This document shows, piece by piece, positions 9,255 through 41,242 of a stretch of 64,000 bases of DNA. The translations under genes were made by a program, and so were the position numbers. The stretch comes from Clostridia bacterium (GTDB taxonomy: Bacteria; Bacillota; Clostridia; Christensenellales; Borkfalkiaceae). The DNA lies in NCBI GenBank assembly GCA_017504165.1, contig JAFVRR010000010.1, forward strand, positions 1 through 64,000, read 5' to 3'. Within the stretch, counting starts at the first letter, position 1; each line of letters starts with the position of its first letter. The notes below the pieces were generated by a model, which saw only the letters and a program-made list of their open reading frames with translations, was not told where the DNA came from and searched no databases.

Positions 9255-10550
9255 TTAGGCTTTAGCAGTGACGTTATCTCTTGCGCTAACCTTACCTTCA
9301 GGGTCAATTTCGCCTGCTTTTGCTAAAGAAATCTTCGTAAGGAACGGACCTATAAGTTCGTAGATTAATACCGAGAATAAAATTATGTTTTGAACGAGCA
9401 ATCCAATATTTGTAGCGTTTGGTACGGTGGAACAATATTCCATAGTTTTAATTGCCATACCAAGCGCAACGCCCGCTTGTGGGAAAAGGGTTATACCAAG
9501 GTATTTTTGCACTGTATCAGGCGCTTTAGAAAATCTAGAACTGATACTTGCACCAAAATATTTACCAACGCATCTACTTATAATATAAATAACGCCGATA
9601 AGTACTACCATCAAGTTCGTTAAAACGCTAAGGTCTAATTCCGCACCGCTTACTACGAAGAAAAGTATAAATATTGGCGCAGTCCATCTATCAAGCCTAT
9701 CCATAAGATTTGCAGAAAAATCGCAAATGTTACAAAAAATTGTACCGAGCATCATACATGCAAGAAGTGAAGAGAATGCAACGTGTATGCCAAAAATTTC
9801 AAACTTAAGCATAGATAACGCAACCGTTAAAAGCACGAACGCTACCGACATTGCAAGTCTTTTAGATCTAGAGTGGAAAAATCTTTCAAAGAACGTGAAT
9901 AAGTAACCCATAACCGTGCCAAGCGCGATTGATAAAACTACTTCTATAAGCGGTTCAACGATAATAGAAATTAAATCTGTAGAGCCCATCATTAAACTTT
10001 TTGCAACGCCGAAAGATATAGAGAATAATATTAAACCTACTGCGTCGTCAAGCGCAACTACGGGAAGTAAAGTATCGGTTACAGGGCCTTTCGCTTTATA
10101 TTGACGTACTACCATTAAAGTTGCCGCAGGAGCGGTTGCCGATGCAACTGCGCCTAAAATTATCGCTGCGGGAAGTGGTAAAACGTCTGGACGAATAAGA
10201 GAGAACGTAATTAACGCAATATCTACGACAATCGTAGTAAATACCGCTTGGAAAATACCGATAATAGTCGCTTGCTTGCCTATTGCCTTTAATTGAGAAA
10301 GTCTAAATTCGTTACCGATAGCAAAGGCGATAAATCCGAGTGCTACGTCTGAAATAATGCTAAGCGAATTTAAATTTTCTTCGCTAGTAAAGCCTAGCCC
10401 GCCGATACCAAGCGCGCCTAAGCAAAACGGACCGACTAATATGCCGGCAATTAAGTATGCCGTCACCGCTGGTAAACTTAAAAGTTTAGCAAGCCTAGAA
10501 AGCATTAATCCAGCGAAAATCGCTATTGATAAACTAAGTAAAATTTCCAT
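9255..10550 (-). CDS. Cation:proton antiporter, CPA2 family
   Basis: 431 residues with about 12 hydrophobic segments. The N-terminal LSLPAVTAYLIAGILVGP and the later VALDDAVGLILFS (paired acidic residues in a membrane helix) are hallmarks of CPA2 Na+(K+)/H+ exchangers of the KefB/NapA group. There is no C-terminal TrkA-N domain, so it is the membrane-only form. Monocistronic, convergent with metA. The transported ion cannot be told from sequence. Confidence 0.9.
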   Translation of the reverse strand: MEILLSLSIAIFAGLMLSRLAKLLSLPAVTAYLIAGILVGPFCLGALGIGGLGFTSEENLNSLSIISDVALGFIAFAIGNEFRLSQLKAIGKQATIIGIFQAVFTTIVVDIALITFSLIRPDVLPLPAAIILGAVASATAPAATLMVVRQYKAKGPVTDTLLPVVALDDAVGLILFSISFGVAKSLMMGSTDLISIIVEPLIEVVLSIALGTVMGYLFTFFERFFHSRSKRLAMSVAFVLLTVALSMLKFEIFGIHVAFSSLLACMMLGTIFCNICDFSANLMDRLDRWTAPIFILFFVVSGAELDLSVLTNLMVVLIGVIYIISRCVGKYFGASISSRFSKAPDTVQKYLGITLFPQAGVALGMAIKTMEYCSTVPNATNIGLLVQNIILFSVLIYELIGPFLTKISLAKAGEIDPEGKVSARDNVTAKA

Positions 10551-32972: not shown

Positions 32973-33062
32973 AGGCCCCTTTGTGGAAAGGGGGCTCCGC
33001 AAAGCGGTGGGGGATTGTCATTCTGAGTGTCGACCAGTAGCGACGGACAATCGAAGAATCTT
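32973..33062. repeat. Two further intergenic repeats in tandem
   Basis: 32973-33017 (GGCCCCTTTGTG ... GGGGGCTCCGC ... GCGGTGGGGGATTG) and 33017-33062 (GTCATTCTGAG ... CGAAGAATCT) each recur at 61526-61570 and 61584-61627. They are short folded repeats (CCCCTTT/AAAGGGG; CTCCGC/GCGG). Confidence 0.8.
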
Positions 33063-33080
33063 ATTAATACATCAATACAA

Positions 33081-33112
33081 AAAACTGCGAATCTAATTCG
33101 CAGTTTTTTATT
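33081..33112 (-). terminator. Terminator of the PlsC/CrtO cluster
   Basis: A 12-bp stem AAAACTGCGAAT/ATTCGCAGTTTT with CTA loop, flanked by A's and T's; it follows the - strand gene ending at 33108. Confidence 0.85.
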
Positions 33113-33686
33113 TTTGTTTTCTTAAATTAAATTTATATAGAGAATGAAGTTTTGGCAAATTGTATCTTAAAATAAAAATTGGCAGTAGATTTAAAACTAG
33201 GTTTACTATCGCAATGGGTAGCGTTACGTAAACAAAAGGGTAAAACAAATTAGCAAGCATAACTAAAAACCCAAAAACTATACAGTAAACGTGCACCATT
33301 ATTCCGTAGTTTGCCTCTAAAATAAACCGTTTGACGTATTCGTTGTCGTTAGGGGAGTATAGTTTATTTTTTCTAAACCCTGTAACCGCGCCTAGTTCAA
33401 GCGCTTTATCTTTCCATTTTTTAATGCCTATTTTTTCATAAAAGCGCATTTCTTTTTTACTTGCCGAAAAGTATAATTTATCAATGCTAAAAAACTTTTC
33501 GGGCATAATCCACCTAACGATTGTAGCAAAGATTATATCTATAACAATTTCTATAACGACAAGCAAAACGACTGCTAATGAAAATTCAACTATACTAAAC
33601 TGCTCTTTAATGGGGGAATAAAAGAAAAAGTTTACTACTATTATTAAAATAGTGTTGAAAATAATCGTTCCTAAATATAAAACCAT
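33108..33686 (-). CDS. CrtO-like membrane acyltransferase
   Basis: 192 residues with about four membrane segments. The order RFYEKIGIKKWKDK, then YVKRFILEAN, then the final LRYNLPKLHSL matches glycosyl-4,4'-diaponeurosporenoate acyltransferase (CrtO)-type proteins (usual end: QRYNRPRL). In staphylococci CrtO esterifies a glycosyl-carotenoid, but no carotenoid genes are visible here. With a PlsC acyltransferase and a GT8 upstream, acylation of a glycolipid or surface glycan is more likely. Confidence 0.75.
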   Translation of the reverse strand: MVLYLGTIIFNTILIIVVNFFFYSPIKEQFSIVEFSLAVVLLVVIEIVIDIIFATIVRWIMPEKFFSIDKLYFSASKKEMRFYEKIGIKKWKDKALELGAVTGFRKNKLYSPNDNEYVKRFILEANYGIMVHVYCIVFGFLVMLANLFYPFVYVTLPIAIVNLVLNLLPIFILRYNLPKLHSLYKFNLRKQK

Positions 33687-33687
33687 T

Positions 33688-34518
33688 TTACTCTTCTCCG
33701 TAAACTAAAGGTTTATCGTAAACCTTTTCGTAAAGATTAACAAGTGCTTTGTAGTTCTCTTCTTTAAGATATTCTGCGTTTTGCTTGTCGCTAAGGTCGT
33801 CTTTTGGGTATATAGGAGGCAAAAACCAAATAGTATAGGCTTGGATTTTAAATCCGTCGCCATCTAGTTTATCAGTATCTTCCATTGTGATAAAAGCGGG
33901 AATTACAGGTACTTTTGATTTAGTAGCAAACCTAAACGCACCGCTTTTAAACGGTCTAGGTTTACGGTAATTCCACCACATTGCTTGCTCTGGATATATT
34001 AAAATTTTCTCTCCCCTAGTCAATAGCGTGTCTACCGCCGACAAAAAGTTTTTCATCGTTTGAGTGTTACTACTAAGGGGTAAAACGTTACAATGCTTGA
34101 ATAAAAAACCGAAAAATCCCTTAAAATTGGTGTAGTTTCCCTCTCTTATAACCTTGTATAATTGATGACCTTTAGGAAGGTCTTTTCTTATTGCGCGGTA
34201 AATTGCGTAATTGTCGTAAACGCTAAAGTGATTACAAGTGATAATCGCCCCGCCGTTTACCTTTCTATAATTTTCTAGTCCGTTTATTTCCTTTATTATA
34301 AATTCTCCCGTTCTAATCTTTTTTTCGTAAAAGTAAACGGCTAAACGGTTTGCGATAAAAGTCATTATTTTAGAAGATAATTTTTCCCCTAAATAATCGA
34401 CTTTATCGGGCATTAAAACTATAGTTTCGGGGTCGTCTTCAACGTCTTTATCCCAAAGTTCTTTATTTTCGTATTCTTTTATTTTTTCTAAGACTTTAAG
34501 TCTATATTCAGATTGCAT
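33688..34518 (-). CDS. 1-acyl-glycerol-3-phosphate acyltransferase (PlsC-like)
   Basis: 276 residues. Motif I NHFSVYDNYA (NHx4D form of HX4D), motif III IYPEQAMW and a downstream VPVIPAF segment are the PlsC pattern. There is no clear membrane helix at the N-terminus. It overlaps the GT8 gene by 11 nt, so the two are translated together. Confidence 0.88.
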   Translation of the reverse strand: MQSEYRLKVLEKIKEYENKELWDKDVEDDPETIVLMPDKVDYLGEKLSSKIMTFIANRLAVYFYEKKIRTGEFIIKEINGLENYRKVNGGAIITCNHFSVYDNYAIYRAIRKDLPKGHQLYKVIREGNYTNFKGFFGFLFKHCNVLPLSSNTQTMKNFLSAVDTLLTRGEKILIYPEQAMWWNYRKPRPFKSGAFRFATKSKVPVIPAFITMEDTDKLDGDGFKIQAYTIWFLPPIYPKDDLSDKQNAEYLKEENYKALVNLYEKVYDKPLVYGEE

Positions 34519-35476
34519 TACTTTCCTCTTTCAACTTTAAGTTCTTGTAATTGTTTTCGCTGTTTATATAATTGATTGCCATTTTTTGAAGGTCGGTAAA
34601 GGCTAAAGAATCGCGTTCCTTTTCTCTATCGGTATAACCGTTGCGCATTGCTAAAAGGTCTTCGTAAAAGGGGGTATCTTTAGCGTATTTCCAAAAGTAT
34701 TCTTCGTATCTAACCCCTTTATAAAGCCACGGCTTAAAGTTGAGTTTATAGTGAATAAGTTTTAAGTCGCTATCGTTAAATTCTTTTTCAGGGATTGGCG
34801 TTTTATTCCAACCGATATCAAGGTATTTAACTTTATCTTTACAAACTACGTTCAAATAATCTTGGTCGGGAGCAACTTCAAATTTGTGTTTTAGCATTAA
34901 GTCAATAAACTTTTTCTCTACGTTTTGCTTTTGATATTCTTTAGTGTTAATTACTAGCAAGCCCGAATTAAAATAATTAAGTCTAGGCACGTCTAAAAAC
35001 TCTTCGGAATATCTGCCAAAACAATCGTAAGAAGTCATTGCCTCTTCGTGTACTGCGCCTATGATATTGTCGCCAAGTTCCTCGTTATAAAGTTCGGAAA
35101 TATCCGTAAGCAATACTATATCGCAGTCAACGTAAATAATCTTGTCGAAATTAGGGAATAGTGACGGAATAAAAATACGATAGTAGATTGCCTTAGTATA
35201 ATAATCGCGAAGGTGCATTTTTTCTTGCAAGCCGTCAAGTCTTTTAGTTACGTCAATATACTCAACGTCTACGTCGGAAGAGTATTCTTCCGCAAGTTTT
35301 ATAATTCTTTCTTCGTTACTTTTAGAAAGCCCGGTATTTAAAACGTATACTTTTAAAAAATATTGAGCGCTTAGGTTTTTCAGTATAGAATTTAAAGCAA
35401 CCGCTAAAAACGGAGCGTAATTATCGTCTACTGCAAACACAACAGGAATTTCTTTTTTTTGTAAAATATTAGTCAT
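34508..35476 (-). CDS. Glycosyltransferase family 8
   Basis: 322 residues, SD AAAGGAGATG-type. VFAVDDNYAPFLAVALNSIL at the N-terminus, the metal-binding DxD in IYVDCDIVLL, and the C-terminal LIHYKLNFKPW (GT8 HxxxxxKPW) are diagnostic. GT8 enzymes transfer hexoses from nucleotide sugars. First gene of the three-gene - strand cluster. Confidence 0.92.
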   Translation of the reverse strand: MTNILQKKEIPVVFAVDDNYAPFLAVALNSILKNLSAQYFLKVYVLNTGLSKSNEERIIKLAEEYSSDVDVEYIDVTKRLDGLQEKMHLRDYYTKAIYYRIFIPSLFPNFDKIIYVDCDIVLLTDISELYNEELGDNIIGAVHEEAMTSYDCFGRYSEEFLDVPRLNYFNSGLLVINTKEYQKQNVEKKFIDLMLKHKFEVAPDQDYLNVVCKDKVKYLDIGWNKTPIPEKEFNDSDLKLIHYKLNFKPWLYKGVRYEEYFWKYAKDTPFYEDLLAMRNGYTDREKERDSLAFTDLQKMAINYINSENNYKNLKLKEESNAI

Positions 35477-35725
35477 AGCATCTCCTTTTTTGCACTGTGC
35501 TTAAAAGCACAAATCAAGTATACTACAACTTTTTTAAAATAGTGCTCTAATGTTTTCTTTCTTTAATCTAATGATTTTTTTAGGATAGTAGAATTAGGTA
35601 AAACCCACTCTACTGCTAGTAGAATTGCACGTTTACGGCTTTTATGCGATGAGGTCAAGGTGTAAAAATAGAGTTTTTTGACAATTAAAAGGTACTTTAT
35701 TAATATTTAATAAAAAAACTAAACT

Positions 35726-35757
35726 AAACACGGTTGGAATTCCAACCGTGTTTTTTA
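35726..35757 (+). terminator. Perfect palindrome terminator 20 bp after a promoter
   Basis: 28-bp palindrome plus T-tract. No gene lies between the promoter at 35678 and this terminator. Confidence 0.7.
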
Positions 35758-35782
35758 ACGTCCTAATAATTTACTTTAATAC

Positions 35783-35811
35783 TTGTAATTTTATAGTTTA
35801 TATGTTAAACT
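35783..35811 (+). promoter_or_regulatory. Promoter of the DUF1538/P-II operon
   Basis: TTGTAA (35783-35788), 17 bp, TAAACT (35806-35811). The inverted repeat AGTTTA-TATGT-TAAACT covers the -10, and TTAACTA-TAT-TAGTTAA follows at 35826-35842; both are candidate operators. Confidence 0.6.
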
Positions 35812-35870
35812 AACTTAAGTAGGTTTTAACTATATTAGTTAAAATAATATAATAAGTAAAGGGGGTTAAT

Positions 35871-37454
35871 ATGAGATTACTAAAAACTATTAAAGAAACG
35901 TTCTATTCTTCTATTCCCCTTGCCGTTATTATTATAACTTGCTTATGCTTTTTCCCAATACAAGGTATTGATAATTATATAAAAATTATAATAGGATACG
36001 CATCGGTTGTTATCGGTCAATCTTTATTTTTAGTAGGTTTAGAGAGTAGTATTTTACCTATCGGGCATATGGTAGGCAGTTCTTTTTCTAAATACAACAA
36101 AGTATTTTTCGTTTTATCGTTTGGGTTCGTGTTTGGTTTACTTGCAACGGTTGCAGAGCCTGCCATTTCCGTTTTAGCCCGTCAAATTAACGGAATACTT
36201 CCAATAATAAACTCAACGGTATTTATTTGGATAACGGGTTTCGGCATAGGCGTCGGCGTTGCTATAGCGCTATATAGAATGCTTAAAAATATAAGCATAA
36301 AAATAATATTTGCAGTGCTTTACGCGCTCGTATTTATTTTAGTAATTTTCTCGCCTGAAGAGTTTATTTCTATCGCGTTTGACGGTAGCGGTGCTACGAC
36401 TGGCGACGTTTCCGTACCATTTATTTTAGCGCTAGGCATAGGTATTTCGGCAACCTTTTCTAAAAATAAAACGAACGAAGATTCGTTTGGCATAATAGGT
36501 ATTTCATCCGTCGGTCCGATTATAACCGTGCTACTTTACGGCGTTATTTTAAAGGCGGTAAACGGCGGGGTACTTCCAAACGAAAACGAATACGTTATGA
36601 AAACGGGTGGCGCGCTTGGCGAAATAATCACGGGCAATTTACTTGACGTTGCCTTGGCAGTATTGCCAATAGTTTTAATTTCCGTTCCATTTTTAATATT
36701 TATATTAAAACTTCCTAAAAAAGAGTTTATTAAACTTATCGTCGGCGTTATTCCCGTTTACGTAGGTCTTTTAATTTTCTTATCGGGTATCGACTACGGT
36801 TTTGAATACGTTAGCCAATATATAGGCAAAGTCTTTTTTGACAGTTCTAGGCCGGAAAACTTTAAATACCTACTTTTAATAGTCGGATTTATTTTGGGCG
36901 CTGCAATCACAGTTTCAGAGCCTGCGGTTACCGTTTTAGGCGACCAAATTGAAGAAATTACTAACGGCCATATTAAAAAGAACACAATAAGATTAACGCT
37001 TGCAATAGGTATCGGCGTAGCGTCGCTCCTTGCAATTTTAAAGATTTTAACCGAAATTAATATTTTATGGTTTTTAGTTCCTTTATACGTTATATCGGTA
37101 GCGCTTATGCCGTTTACTCCTAAACTTTTCGTTGGGCTTGCTTACGATTCGGGCGGTGTTACTGGTGGCGCGTTAACTTCGGCGTTTTTAACCCCGTTAA
37201 CGCTCAGTATTGCAAGCCAAGTTGCAGTATCTTCGGGCGGAACAATGTCCGTACTCACTAACGGTTTCGGCATTATATCCTTTATTTCGGTCATGCCGAT
37301 AATAGCCGTTCAAATACTTGGTATTGTATACGACGTTTGCTCTAAAAAGGCGTCTAAAATGGAAGAAACTTTTGAAGAATTACAGTATTACGTTAGTAGT
37401 GGCAACGTAAAATCCACTAAAACGAGAAGGAGGAAATATGGAAAAAAACAATAA
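35871..37454 (+). CDS. DUF1538 family membrane protein (two tandem DUF1538 repeats)
   Basis: 527 residues with about 12-14 hydrophobic segments. The protein is an internal duplication: TVAEPAISVLARQI in the first half matches TVSEPAVTVLGDQI in the second, and the AFDGSGATTGDVSVPF segment matches AYDSGGVTGGALTSAF. Glycine/Asp-rich re-entrant-loop-like sequences suggest a transporter. DUF1538 proteins are described as putative permeases of unknown substrate. It overlaps the first P-II-like gene by 17 nt, so the operon is tightly coupled. Confidence 0.88.
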   Translation: MRLLKTIKETFYSSIPLAVIIITCLCFFPIQGIDNYIKIIIGYASVVIGQSLFLVGLESSILPIGHMVGSSFSKYNKVFFVLSFGFVFGLLATVAEPAISVLARQINGILPIINSTVFIWITGFGIGVGVAIALYRMLKNISIKIIFAVLYALVFILVIFSPEEFISIAFDGSGATTGDVSVPFILALGIGISATFSKNKTNEDSFGIIGISSVGPIITVLLYGVILKAVNGGVLPNENEYVMKTGGALGEIITGNLLDVALAVLPIVLISVPFLIFILKLPKKEFIKLIVGVIPVYVGLLIFLSGIDYGFEYVSQYIGKVFFDSSRPENFKYLLLIVGFILGAAITVSEPAVTVLGDQIEEITNGHIKKNTIRLTLAIGIGVASLLAILKILTEINILWFLVPLYVISVALMPFTPKLFVGLAYDSGGVTGGALTSAFLTPLTLSIASQVAVSSGGTMSVLTNGFGIISFISVMPIIAVQILGIVYDVCSKKASKMEETFEELQYYVSSGNVKSTKTRRRKYGKKQ

Positions 37455-37752
37455 TAGACTATTATATTTTGTTCTTATATGCAATCCTAAACACAAAACT
37501 AAAATGCTCACTTTACTTCAAGACAACGGCGCGAGGTCTATTAGTACTATAAGTGCGAAAGGTTCTGCACCGCAAAGCGCAATACTTCAGGCGTTTGGGC
37601 TAGAGGCGTCGAACAAAAAGTATATTCTAACTACTTTACTTCCATATGAAGTTGCAACAAACCTTATAGAAGTTTTAAAAAATGAATACGATTTTAATAA
37701 ACCTAACACGGGTATAGCATTTACTATTCCCGTTGAAGGATTATTATTTTAA
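37438..37752 (+). CDS. P-II-like signalling protein 1
   Basis: 104 residues, AGGAGG 4 nt before ATG. Ferredoxin-like fold pattern beginning LLYFVLICNPKHKTKMLTLL, with GxxxAIL and TIPVEG near the end (P-II C-terminal motif). The T-loop segment (about 35-55) is shortened and lacks the usual uridylylated Tyr51, so any signalling would be by ligand binding rather than by GlnD. It is encoded inside the end of the DUF1538 gene. Confidence 0.8.
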   Translation: MEKNNNRLLYFVLICNPKHKTKMLTLLQDNGARSISTISAKGSAPQSAILQAFGLEASNKKYILTTLLPYEVATNLIEVLKNEYDFNKPNTGIAFTIPVEGLLF

Positions 37753-37761
37753 GGAGAAGTT

Positions 37762-38064
37762 ATGAAAGATTTAAAAGCGCTTTATATTATAGTTAATGCA
37801 GGGTTTAGTTCTCAAATAGTAGATATCGCCCGTGAATGTGGTGCGACGGGTGCTACGATTTTAAATGCTAGGGGCTCGGTTCAAAAACCGCAAACGATTT
37901 TAGGTATAACGATTGATGCCGAAAAGGAAATAGTTTTATCAATAGTAACTGAAGAAGTTGCGGGAAAAATTATGCAAGCGGTTAAAGAAAAAGCGGGCGT
38001 TGGTACTTCCGCACACGGCTTGTGTTTCTATTTGCCCGTTGAGGGAACTACACTAAATATTTAA
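37762..38064 (+). CDS. P-II-like signalling protein 2
   Basis: 100 residues, paralogue of the preceding protein. LKALYIIVNAGFSSQIVDIA is the first beta-alpha unit, GATGATILNARGS precedes a short T-loop, and CFYLPVEGTT is the end motif. It lies 9 nt after the first copy. Two non-identical copies could form heterotrimers that gate the DUF1538 protein. The stop codon lies inside a 126-bp intergenic element. Confidence 0.85.
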   Translation: MKDLKALYIIVNAGFSSQIVDIARECGATGATILNARGSVQKPQTILGITIDAEKEIVLSIVTEEVAGKIMQAVKEKAGVGTSAHGLCFYLPVEGTTLNI

Positions 38065-38185
38065 AAGGGTATAAGCGTCGAATTTCCATGTTAACTGCTA
38101 CGCATTTCGACTCCAACAACCAACAAGGTTAGTTTCAGCCAAAATGCTTGCGAGCCTCGAAATTCTTGCTTCTACACTTTTAAAT
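38060..38185. repeat. TIR-bounded element, copy 2 (left of AlkD-like gene)
   Basis: 126 bp starting TTTAAAAGGGTATAAGCG and ending CTACACTTTTAAAT. Outer ends are inverted (TTTAAAAG/CTTTTAAA). It is identical to 38877-39002 except for two bases near the centre. Confidence 0.9.
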
Positions 38186-38220
38186 ACGTACTTTATTTAA
38201 GTTTAATATACGGAAACAAA

Positions 38221-38949
38221 ATGAACGAAATTATAAATAAATTATTTTCTTTTCAAGATTTAGGGTATAAAGATTTTCACTCTAAACTTATGCCAACTGT
38301 CGATAAAGAAAGAGTTATCGGTGTAAGAGTGCCCGTTCTTAGAAAATACGCTAAAGAATTATTTAAAAGTGGTAATTACGCTAATTTTTTAAAAGATTTA
38401 CCGCACTATTATTATGAAGAAAACAATCTTCACGCATTTATAATAGAACAAATTAAAGATTATAATTTATGCATATTAGAAGTTGAAAGGTTTTTGCCGT
38501 ATATAGACAACTGGGCAACTTGCGATATGCTAACGCCTAAATGTTTTAATAAAAACAAATTAGACCTTTATAATAAAATAAAAAATTGGATTAACTCTAA
38601 CAACGCATACACCGTTAGATACGCGGTAAAAACGCTAATGGCTTTTTATTTAGATAGCGATTTTAGTTTAGAACACTTAGATTTAATACAAAGTATTAAA
38701 AGTGATAAGTACTACGTTAAAATGGCTATTGCTTGGTATATGGCAACGGCGCTTACTAAACAATACGATAGCGCTATAAAAGTTATCAAAAGCAATAGTT
38801 TAGATGATTGGACGCATAACAAAAGTATTCAAAAAGCGGTAGAGAGTTATAGAATTGATAACGAAACTAAAAAGTATTTAAAAGGGTATAAGCGTCGAAT
38901 TTCCATGTTAACTGCTACGCATTTTGACTTCAACAACCAACAAGGTTAG
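38221..38949 (+). CDS. DNA alkylation repair protein (AlkD-like HEAT-repeat)
   Basis: 242 residues. RVIGVRVPVLRKYAKEL, FLPYIDNWATCDMLTPK and WYMATALTKQY are the AlkC/AlkD-type HEAT-repeat features, with Asp/Trp residues expected in the base-lesion pocket (NWATCDM). AlkD enzymes excise N3/N7-alkylated bases. The natural end is near YRIDNETKKYL; the last ~23 codons and the stop come from the repeat element at 38877-39002, so the C-terminus is element-derived. Confidence 0.88.
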   Translation: MNEIINKLFSFQDLGYKDFHSKLMPTVDKERVIGVRVPVLRKYAKELFKSGNYANFLKDLPHYYYEENNLHAFIIEQIKDYNLCILEVERFLPYIDNWATCDMLTPKCFNKNKLDLYNKIKNWINSNNAYTVRYAVKTLMAFYLDSDFSLEHLDLIQSIKSDKYYVKMAIAWYMATALTKQYDSAIKVIKSNSLDDWTHNKSIQKAVESYRIDNETKKYLKGYKRRISMLTATHFDFNNQQG

Positions 38950-39002
38950 TTTCAGCCAAAATGCTTGCGAGCCTCGAAATTCTTGCTTCTACACTTTTAA
39001 AT
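38877..39002. repeat. TIR-bounded element, copy 3 (overlaps the end of the AlkD-like gene)
   Basis: Same 126-bp unit as 38060-38185, same orientation. Its first 73 bases are read as codons of the AlkD-like gene and supply its stop (38947-38949). Confidence 0.9.
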
Positions 39003-39030
39003 TGACGTTTTAATAAAAACAAGAAAACAA

Positions 39031-39060
39031 AAAAGTAGGTTTTTGTAAACCTACTTTTTA
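39031..39060 (-). terminator. Terminator of the AraC-type gene
   Basis: A 12-bp stem AAAAGTAGGTTT/AAACCTACTTTT with TTGT loop; usable on both strands. Confidence 0.8.
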
Positions 39061-39130
39061 TCTTTATATACAAAATTGAACTTATTGTGTTTAATATTAA
39101 CTGTTTAAAAGTTTAAAAATGTTGTACAAT

Positions 39131-39991
39131 TTATTTATTATCACGGCTTTTGGGCGGGTAGCCGTATTTCGTTTTAAACGCTTTAGTAAAGGCGTTAGGG
39201 GTAGAGTAGTTAAGTTTTTCAGAAATTTCGTAAATTTTAAGTTTTTTTTCATCAACTAGAGATTTTGCTACTTCTAACTTTCTATTCAAAAAGTATTCGC
39301 GGAGCGAAATTTTAGTAACGGATTTAAAAACGCTTGATAAATAACTGTAATTGTACTTAAAAACGTCGCTTATAACTGATAGCGATTCAATATCAAAAAT
39401 GTTGATATCTATATAATTCATAATTTTAGTGCAGAGTATTTCTTTACTTGTTATACTGTCGTTTTCGCTAAACCTTTCTTTACTTTTAAAGTTTCTTATA
39501 ACGTATACGATAATAGTGTTAAGTAAGTTTGCAATAACTTCGCCGTCGTGCTCGTTATTAGAAGTGTATTCCGCTAAAATTAAAGAAGTTAACCTCGATA
39601 TTCTATTGTCGTTAATGATCCTTTCGTTAGCGCCGTGAAAGTTAGATATAATATACTCTAAATCGTTATAAAACTCTTCGTTTTCTATAAAAAAGGCGAT
39701 ATGGTCGTACTTTAACGGATTGTTTGTCGACGAGATTATTTCGTGTTTATCAAGTGGAAGGGATAGGTAAATATCTCCGCTTTTAACTTTTACCGAAACG
39801 TTGTTAGTCTTTATAATCCCTTCGCCGTCGGTAACGATTGTAAGTTCAAAAAAGTCGGAATGAAGGTGGGGGTTTATAACTCTACCGCTATTGCAAAAAT
39901 ATCTTCCCACTTGCAAAACTTTAACCTTTCTATAAGACTTAGGGCTTGTTAAATAGGTGTCTATTTTAAATTCGTTAAATGCTGTACTCAT
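39131..39991 (-). CDS. AraC-family transcriptional regulator
   Basis: 286 residues. Cupin-type sensor domain (about 25-110; HLHSDFFELTIVTDGEG is the typical H-x-H-x-x-x-E-L start) and C-terminal double HTH (about 190-286: SVISDVFKYNYSYLSSVFK, then IYEISEKLNYSTPNAFTKAFK and YPPKSR). Divergent from the Gfo/Idh operon at 40160 across 168 bp, and probably its activator. Confidence 0.9.
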   Translation of the reverse strand: MSTAFNEFKIDTYLTSPKSYRKVKVLQVGRYFCNSGRVINPHLHSDFFELTIVTDGEGIIKTNNVSVKVKSGDIYLSLPLDKHEIISSTNNPLKYDHIAFFIENEEFYNDLEYIISNFHGANERIINDNRISRLTSLILAEYTSNNEHDGEVIANLLNTIIVYVIRNFKSKERFSENDSITSKEILCTKIMNYIDINIFDIESLSVISDVFKYNYSYLSSVFKSVTKISLREYFLNRKLEVAKSLVDEKKLKIYEISEKLNYSTPNAFTKAFKTKYGYPPKSRDNK

Positions 39992-40100
39992 AGTTAAATT
40001 TTATATCTAAATAGTGGCCTTGTCAATAAAAATATTATTATTTTTGGCAAAAATTAACTAAAATCTAAAAAAATGATAGATTTTTCACAAAATTAGTTTA

Positions 40101-40129
40101 TTGTAAAGGGGAATAAAAAGTTATACAAT
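40101..40129 (+). promoter_or_regulatory. Promoter of the Gfo/Idh operon
   Basis: TTGTAA (40101-40106), 17 bp, TACAAT (40124-40129). Confidence 0.65.
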
Positions 40130-40159
40130 AATAGTACCAAAATAAAAGGGGTATTATAT

Positions 40160-41242
40160 ATGAAAGTTATAGCAGTTATCGGATGTGGTAGAATATCCAC
40201 AAAACATTTCCCAGCACTTCAAGTAAACGAAAACGTTAGAATTAAATACGCTTGCGATATTATAATTGAAAAGGCGGAAAAGGCAAAAGAAAAATATAGT
40301 AAAATTGAAAACGTTATTAGCGACTATAATATTGCTCTTAACGATAGTGAAGTAGACGCGGTTTACGTGTTAACGCCAAACTTTAAGCACTACACTATTA
40401 CAATGGCGGCTTTAAAGGCGGGTAAGCACGTATTTTGTGAAAAGCCAATCACGGTTAATTACGAACTTTCTTTGGAAATGGCAAAAGAGGCCGAAAAGCA
40501 AAACAAAATGTTATGTATCGGCGTAGTTAATAGGTTTAACAAGGCCATTGAAACGTTAAGGGATATGGTAAAAGATGGTAAATTTGGCAATATTTATCAC
40601 GTTTACTGTTCGTTTAGGTCTTGTAGATGTATTCCGGGCTTAGGTGGCGCGTTTACTAATAAAGCGGAATCGGGCGGTGGCGTTTTAATTGACTGGGGCG
40701 TTCACTTCTTCGATTTAGTTTATTACGTTTTAGGCGGTTTCAAAATTAAAAATATTACTTCTAACGCCTACTCTGAAATGGCTAAAGATATGAAGTCTTA
40801 CGTTTACAAAAAAGGTACTATGTGGGCGGAAGATACGTCTGATATAGAAAACGGCGTCAACGACGTTGACGATTTTATTTCCGGCTATATTAGAACGGAT
40901 AAAGGTAGCATTTCATTTAACGGCGCGTGGGCGCAAAATATTGAAGATAACGAAATGTTTATCGACTTTTTAGGTGATAAGGGTGGCGCAAGGCTTTCTT
41001 ACGGTGGAAACTTTACCTTCTTTGACGGTGCGACTATTACTTCTAGCGCCTCTGACATTTCTTTCGAGCCGGTTACTGAATTTAAAATTCCAGATATGTT
41101 CTTACAAGAAAACAACGGTTTTATCGACTCTATTACAACGGGCGAAAAGGCTAGAAATCACATCGAATACGTTTTAGAAAGCGCAAAACTTTTAGACGGA
41201 TTATATAAATCTAGCGAACTTGATAAGGAGATATCGTTCTAA
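40160..41242 (+). CDS. Gfo/Idh/MocA family oxidoreductase
   Basis: 360 residues. Rossmann domain with VIGCGRIS near the N-terminus and catalytic Lys in CEKPITVNYE; the C-terminal domain has GGGVLIDWGVHFFDL with the catalytic Asp/His pair. The family oxidises or reduces sugars, inositols and their derivatives with NAD(P). First gene of a tight four-gene operon under the divergent AraC regulator. Substrate unknown. Confidence 0.9.
   Translation: MKVIAVIGCGRISTKHFPALQVNENVRIKYACDIIIEKAEKAKEKYSKIENVISDYNIALNDSEVDAVYVLTPNFKHYTITMAALKAGKHVFCEKPITVNYELSLEMAKEAEKQNKMLCIGVVNRFNKAIETLRDMVKDGKFGNIYHVYCSFRSCRCIPGLGGAFTNKAESGGGVLIDWGVHFFDLVYYVLGGFKIKNITSNAYSEMAKDMKSYVYKKGTMWAEDTSDIENGVNDVDDFISGYIRTDKGSISFNGAWAQNIEDNEMFIDFLGDKGGARLSYGGNFTFFDGATITSSASDISFEPVTEFKIPDMFLQENNGFIDSITTGEKARNHIEYVLESAKLLDGLYKSSELDKEISF

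Follow-up and report, generated by a model that had tools for sequence, protein, structure and literature searches.

Do a membrane protein of the DUF1538 family and the two small P-II-like proteins encoded directly behind it form one working unit, and if so, what might such a unit control? The question is raised by a locus in a Clostridia bacterium (Borkfalkiaceae; GCA_017504165.1, contig JAFVRR010000010.1), of which we analysed a stretch of 64,000 nucleotides, positions 1-64,000 of the forward strand, here called the window. PII proteins are classically known as sensors of nitrogen and carbon status. All three open reading frames predicted earlier at this locus are present where they had been placed (Table 1), with the DUF1538 gene overlapping that of the first P-II-like protein (Pa), followed by the non-identical second one (Pb). 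The Pa gene shares 17 nt with the 3' end of the DUF1538 gene, a gap of 9 nt separates Pa from Pb, and purine-rich, Shine-Dalgarno-like stretches lie directly 5' of both P-II-like genes, whose products are 21% identical. A direct repeat of 131 nt has 98% identical copies at 38055-38185, from the end of Pb into the intergenic region, and at 38872-39002, spanning the end of the next gene. An Rfam scan of window positions 33000-40500 at E 0.1 returned no match.

Table 1. Features of the DUF1538/P-II locus in the window, with the evidence for each.
Feature	Positions	Strand	Evidence
Tandem DUF1538 membrane protein, UmpAB-like, both halves in one chain, 527 aa	35871..37454	+	PF07556, E 8.1e-116, two stretches
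First DUF1538 copy, with invariant E96-P97 and D171	35928..36548	+	201.3 bits; invariant columns in 40 aligned proteins
Second DUF1538 copy, with invariant E350-P351 and D426	36669..37328	+	196.7 bits; same 40-protein alignment
Pa, first P-II-like protein, 104 aa	37438..37752	+	PF00543, 22.9 bits, below the cut-off of 25; predicted PII fold
Pb, second P-II-like protein, 100 aa	37762..38064	+	PF00543, 27.9 bits, above the cut-off of 25; profile matches solved PII

The 527-residue protein scores 385.1 bits against a PF07556 cut-off of 22.6, and beyond DUF1538 it has no other significant Pfam match. The internal duplication proposed for it is confirmed by the two PF07556 matches, and the two halves share the same residue at 68 of the 223 columns of their alignment.

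The association of DUF1538 with P-II recurs widely. Among 142 DUF1538 clusters in Bacillota, 135 have a P-II domain on the same strand within 900 nt downstream; the median distance between the two is 2 nt, and in 63 cases they overlap. The loci came from all 62 non-self relatives with DUF1538 and from the matching genomes of the phylum sample, with G207 and a second fragment of G183 left out. The 142 clusters exclude the window, the named loci L003-L011 and the plasmid loci; of the short first-pass loci, L021 and L023 alone are counted. Of the seven clusters that have no P-II domain downstream, three lie at contig ends (L049, L174, L176), two are short remnants (L106, L178), and one has its P-II gene just upstream of DUF1538 instead (L105). 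The true exception, L096 in genome G089, is a tandem DUF1538 gene with no P-II downstream. The three-gene arrangement is far beyond chance. Some loci carry more than one copy of the components, with two DUF1538-P-II units in series at L122, L125 and L172, and two tandem DUF1538 genes followed by one P-II pair at L089. The 878 nt between the DUF1538 gene of L096 and its contig end hold apparent RelBE-like toxin-antitoxin genes, named by eye.

The number of P-II domains matches the form of the transporter. Where DUF1538 is a tandem in one gene, two P-II domains are found in 91 of 93 loci, fused in 51 and as separate genes in 40, while the two remaining loci run into a contig edge. DUF1538 transporters made of two genes have one P-II domain in 16 of 32 loci and two in the other 16, and single DUF1538 genes have one in 7 loci and two in 3 truncated loci. 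Overall, the Pa and Pb domains share one polypeptide in 65 of 135 loci, joined by linkers of 22-62 residues; we noticed no fusion of DUF1538 itself to P-II in the loci surveyed. A fusion of Pa to Pb fixes their ratio at 1:1, which is easier to reconcile with a pair of trimers or a hexamer than with a 2:1 trimer. Given these fusions, the heterotrimer first suggested for Pa and Pb would not be the simplest form.

Presence and absence of the genes are also matched. DUF1538 is present in 63 of 101 close relatives and in 67 of 199 genomes sampled across the phylum. Searched with a profile built from 34 Pb proteins, Pb is found in 62 of the 101 relatives, which are the DUF1538 genomes minus G089, and in none of the 38 relatives without DUF1538; these raw co-occurrence counts overstate the number of independent events, because the genomes are phylogenetically non-independent, and some absences possibly reflect incomplete assemblies (G008, for example, is 89% complete). 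Within the listed genomes, members with both genes and members with neither occur together in seven genera (g1, g2, g5, g7, g8, g11 and g18). The same DUF1538/P-II order is found in alphaproteobacteria, one deltaproteobacterium and Bacillota; the deltaproteobacterial contig (L010) encodes a DUF1538 protein of 714 residues and then a double P-II protein of 379 residues. The Thiotrichaceae genome G302 counts against tight linkage, as its DUF1538 gene (L201) has no adjoining P-II and its P-II pair (L007) is on another contig. The Thiotrichaceae P-II pairs L007 and L008 have no DUF1538 gene alongside, and adjoin peptide-deformylase-like and ACT-like genes, again named by eye.

These distributions bear on the simplest alternative, that the genes have simply been inherited as neighbours and have no working relation. 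Many of the surveyed genomes are indeed relatives, so that their loci are non-independent, and P-II pairs such as L007 and L008 do exist apart from DUF1538, but the joint presence or absence inside seven genera, the gene order shared by alphaproteobacteria, a deltaproteobacterium and Bacillota, and the way in which one, two or fused P-II domains track the copy number of the transporter make this explanation scarcely credible. The original prediction, which was to stand or fall by such a neighbourhood survey, thus survived its own test in the 135 of 142 clusters, in the matched phyletic pattern and in classes other than that of the source genome. In phylogenetic trees, the window module groups with L074 of genome G045 and with L003-L006, with support of 1.0 for the permease, 0.985 for Pa and 0.0 for Pb, where the grouping is unsupported. 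Distance correlations among the permease, Pa and Pb trees are 0.77-0.84, a range computed without a control and carrying little weight.

What kind of P-II proteins are Pa and Pb? The two were assigned by gene order and not by score, because iterated profiles of Pa and of Pb converged on one another. The Pb of the window exceeds the cut-off of PF00543 and the Pa falls below it (Table 1), with an E-value of 1.1e-4 for Pa. At E 0.01, PF00543 matches 34 of 34 Pb proteins and 16 of 34 Pa proteins, and it also matches all 10 proteins taken as a sample of other loci, so the domain assignment does not depend on the self-built profile alone. Searched against the PDB, the profile of the 34 Pb proteins recovers classical PII chains (best 1.3e-7); a match of Pb to DUF2179 is weak and below cut-off (E 0.013). 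A structure model of Pa (mean pLDDT 84.6) has the ferredoxin-like beta-alpha-beta repeat of the PII-like superfamily, matching solved PII-like proteins. Foldseek returned PII and PII-like proteins only among the 50 matches listed, including TTHA0516 at E 1.5e-5, and in a second alignment TTHA0516, CPII and SbtB-type proteins lead, with Z 10.5-11.2. The predicted model superimposes on the solved structure of TTHA0516 over 85 residues with Z 11.2 and an rmsd of 2.9, and the nearest solved folds include SbtB in complex with the transporter SbtA. The fold match of Pa carries no information on its ligand.

The canonical signatures of GlnB and GlnK, the Tyr51-type uridylylation motif and the GDG[KR] B-loop, are found in none of 67 Pa and none of 67 Pb domains, the pair in the window included. 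Conserved instead are a GT turn, an E-K pair immediately ahead of the third strand, and a G-x-G-I-x-F segment. Both proteins had been said to lack a Tyr51-type T-loop, and the canonical motif is indeed absent from both, but the Pa model keeps a loop of ~20 residues at the T-loop position. Because the canonical nucleotide B-loop is absent from all 134 domains, ligand binding is not assured.

Pa and Pb could in principle be conventional P-II proteins of the nitrogen type, sensing 2-oxoglutarate and ATP/ADP and plugging the transporter in the manner of GlnK on AmtB. The Pfam score of Pb, the PF00543 matches of all 34 Pb proteins and the match of their profile to classical PII would fit such a role, and GlnK-AmtB is likewise a PII-fold protein paired with a membrane transporter. 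However, none of the 134 domains has the uridylylation or the GDG[KR] motif, PF00543 at E 0.01 recognises just 16 of the 34 Pa proteins, and the top fold matches are PII-like proteins, not GlnB or GlnK. In addition, the source genome has no AmtB and no P-II gene besides Pa and Pb. We consider the nitrogen-type reading very unlikely, and the analogy to GlnK and AmtB on which the first interpretation of the locus drew is weakened by the absence of the motifs, of other P-II genes and of AmtB alike. Since Pa and Pb are the only P-II proteins of the genome, a role as nitrogen sensors for another target is also unlikely.

The substrate of DUF1538 proteins had been regarded as unknown when the locus was first described. 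UmpA and UmpB of Halomonas zhaodongensis, which are only distantly related to the window protein, are nevertheless homologous members of the same family, and were reported in 2017 to work as a heterodimeric Na+(Li+,K+)/H+ antiporter whose activity depends on pH (PMC5484666). The antiport is obtained in Escherichia coli from the two genes alone, and the authors propose the same function for the DUF1538 family at large (PMC5484666). UmpAB is like the window protein in its Pfam family and in having two homologous DUF1538 units that act together, and unlike it in that the units are two genes rather than one chain. UmpA and UmpB are also the NCBIfam models nearest to the window protein (NF041627 and NF041628), which scores 184.7 bits against an equivalog cut-off of 490 and 151.1 bits against one of 500. 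Because these scores are far below the cut-offs, the window protein does not count as an UmpA or UmpB equivalog, and a shared substrate can be inferred only at the level of the family, and on this basis the window protein, as a distant relative, would move the same ions as UmpAB. The acidic residues E96, D171, E350 and D426, invariant in 40 tandem DUF1538 proteins, would suit cation or proton binding. A machine-learning study of 2026 places DUF1538 among key pH-adaptation genes (PMC13255231). A PF00999-type Na+/H+ exchanger at window positions 9255-10550 on the minus strand is the sole one found in the source genome.

A model of the 527-residue protein, made from a 6-sequence alignment, has a mean pLDDT of 78.3 and a pTM of 0.81. 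Foldseek matched it to 0 chains at E 0.001 or better (best E 7.6e-3, TM about 0.12), the top VIA-align match (Z 5.7) is an unrelated oxidoreductase, and a profile of 40 DUF1538 proteins matched no chain in the PDB. As the model has no confident solved relative, a docking site for Pa and Pb cannot be named. Helix breaks predicted at the conserved AEP and D-G-rich motifs suggest re-entrant hairpins, which we do not claim as the fold.

A second reading accepts the module as real and takes this branch of DUF1538 to move bicarbonate, another small anion or an osmolyte, with P-II as a carbon or energy sensor like SbtB. It is encouraged by the solved folds closest to Pa, which are of the carbon type (SbtB and the bicarbonate-binding CPII), by the distance of the window protein from the UmpA and UmpB equivalog models, and by a DUF1538 fold that no solved relative fixes. 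We nonetheless regard it as unlikely, given that no DUF1538 proteins have been tested except the antiporter of Na+, Li+ and K+ against H+ (PMC5484666) and that the four acidic residues are invariant in 40 tandem proteins.

Pa and Pb might instead be structural or assembly subunits of the transporter and not sensors. Their near-constant linkage, the matching copy number and the loss of the canonical nucleotide loop are all compatible with this. Yet SbtB, CPII and similar PII-like proteins bind nucleotides in solved structures, to judge by the titles of these structures, and two-gene transporters often (16 of 32) have a single P-II domain. Moreover, the two UmpAB genes suffice for function in E. 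coli (PMC5484666), which indicates that P-II is dispensable for basal transport there. We consider the subunit explanation quite unlikely.

In two of the 130 loci scanned, L120 and L155, the DUF1538 open reading frame is preceded on its own strand by a c-di-AMP riboswitch, at distances of 18 and 50 nt. c-di-AMP is a messenger linked to K+, and riboswitches of this class usually turn genes off. Such off-type control would suit import just as well as export. Together with the pH-adaptation listing, the riboswitches at L120 and L155 are hints that point to ion balance. The source genome has one c-di-AMP synthase domain and no c-di-AMP riboswitch among the matches listed. Its absence there, and its presence at no more than 2 of 130 loci, weigh against c-di-AMP control of the module. 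A third riboswitch of the class, at L106, is situated downstream of that module and precedes a different gene.

Overall, we think it probable that the three genes are one unit in which nucleotide-sensing, PII-like Pa and Pb gate an antiporter of monovalent cations (Na+ and/or K+) and protons. The tandem DUF1538 protein would be a secondary transporter, most likely a Na+ and/or K+/proton antiporter like UmpAB, and Pa and Pb would be divergent PII-like proteins co-produced with that transporter. Their probable ligands are adenine nucleotides (ATP/ADP/AMP or c-di-AMP), bound in the cleft between PII subunits, and their loops would probably contact the transporter from the cytoplasmic side, which would slow or block transport as the energy or ion state of the cell demands. 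The near-constant pairing suggests a putative dedicated on/off regulator for salt and pH balance. We infer the ligand, the docking, the direction of control and the oligomeric form of Pa and Pb, drawing nucleotide binding and docking by analogy with SbtA-SbtB, the closest mechanistic precedent. More tentatively, it is possible that the locus represents a widespread, non-nitrogen branch of PII proteins for cation/proton exchange, in which 1:1 stacked trimers or a hetero-hexamer respond to adenine nucleotides, possibly c-di-AMP, and gate DUF1538. If so, this branch would couple the energy or K+ state of the cell to pH and salt balance.

In the cyanobacterial bicarbonate system SbtA-SbtB, the T-loop of the PII-like SbtB trimer enters a cleft of SbtA, the transporter of the same operon (PMC8352866). 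SbtA-SbtB is like our module in placing a PII-like protein in an operon with a transporter, and the Pa model matches SbtB. However, SbtA belongs to another transporter family, in the complex a transporter trimer carries a trimer of a single kind of PII-like chain instead of two diverged and often fused kinds, and the neighbour of Pa and Pb is DUF1538 rather than the SbtA that defines SbtB by operon. CPII of Thiomonas, PotN of Lentilactobacillus and TTHA0516 of Thermus are small PII-like proteins that share the fold of Pa, but only 16-20% identity in the alignments. YitT-type proteins with a C-terminal PII-like DUF2179 domain, such as BB0017, also tie a PII-like domain to a membrane protein (PMC6516651), although in their case a different membrane protein carries the domain within its own chain.

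A PII-like protein with its transporter is known, and what is new is the pairing of a cation/proton antiporter family with two diverged, often fused PII chains. We found no published account of P-II with DUF1538 in the open-access literature. The papers found there that contain DUF1538 do not discuss P-II in their main text, where the lone "PII" string is part of a sequence motif, and the words P-II and PII are absent from the UmpAB paper (PMC5484666). The locus is real and conserved, and fits its initial description as a defined and apparently undescribed module, with a probable regulatory role. The pairing would bring ion and pH balance within the reach of PII control, and would offer the UmpAB antiporter a testable partner as well as an unusual PII assembly of two kinds of chain.

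The module is also found on plasmids, where P-II lies directly downstream of DUF1538 in 7 of 7 loci (5 in Bacillota and 2 in alphaproteobacteria) and is annotated as such in 5. These loci are drawn from nine records, two of which were omitted as second records of the same species. The hosts are Acetoanaerobium, Vescimonas, Paraclostridium, Subdoligranulum, Peptoclostridium, Chelativorans and Methylocystis. The Chelativorans plasmid that carries the module (L194) is conjugative, which implies that the unit can move between hosts.
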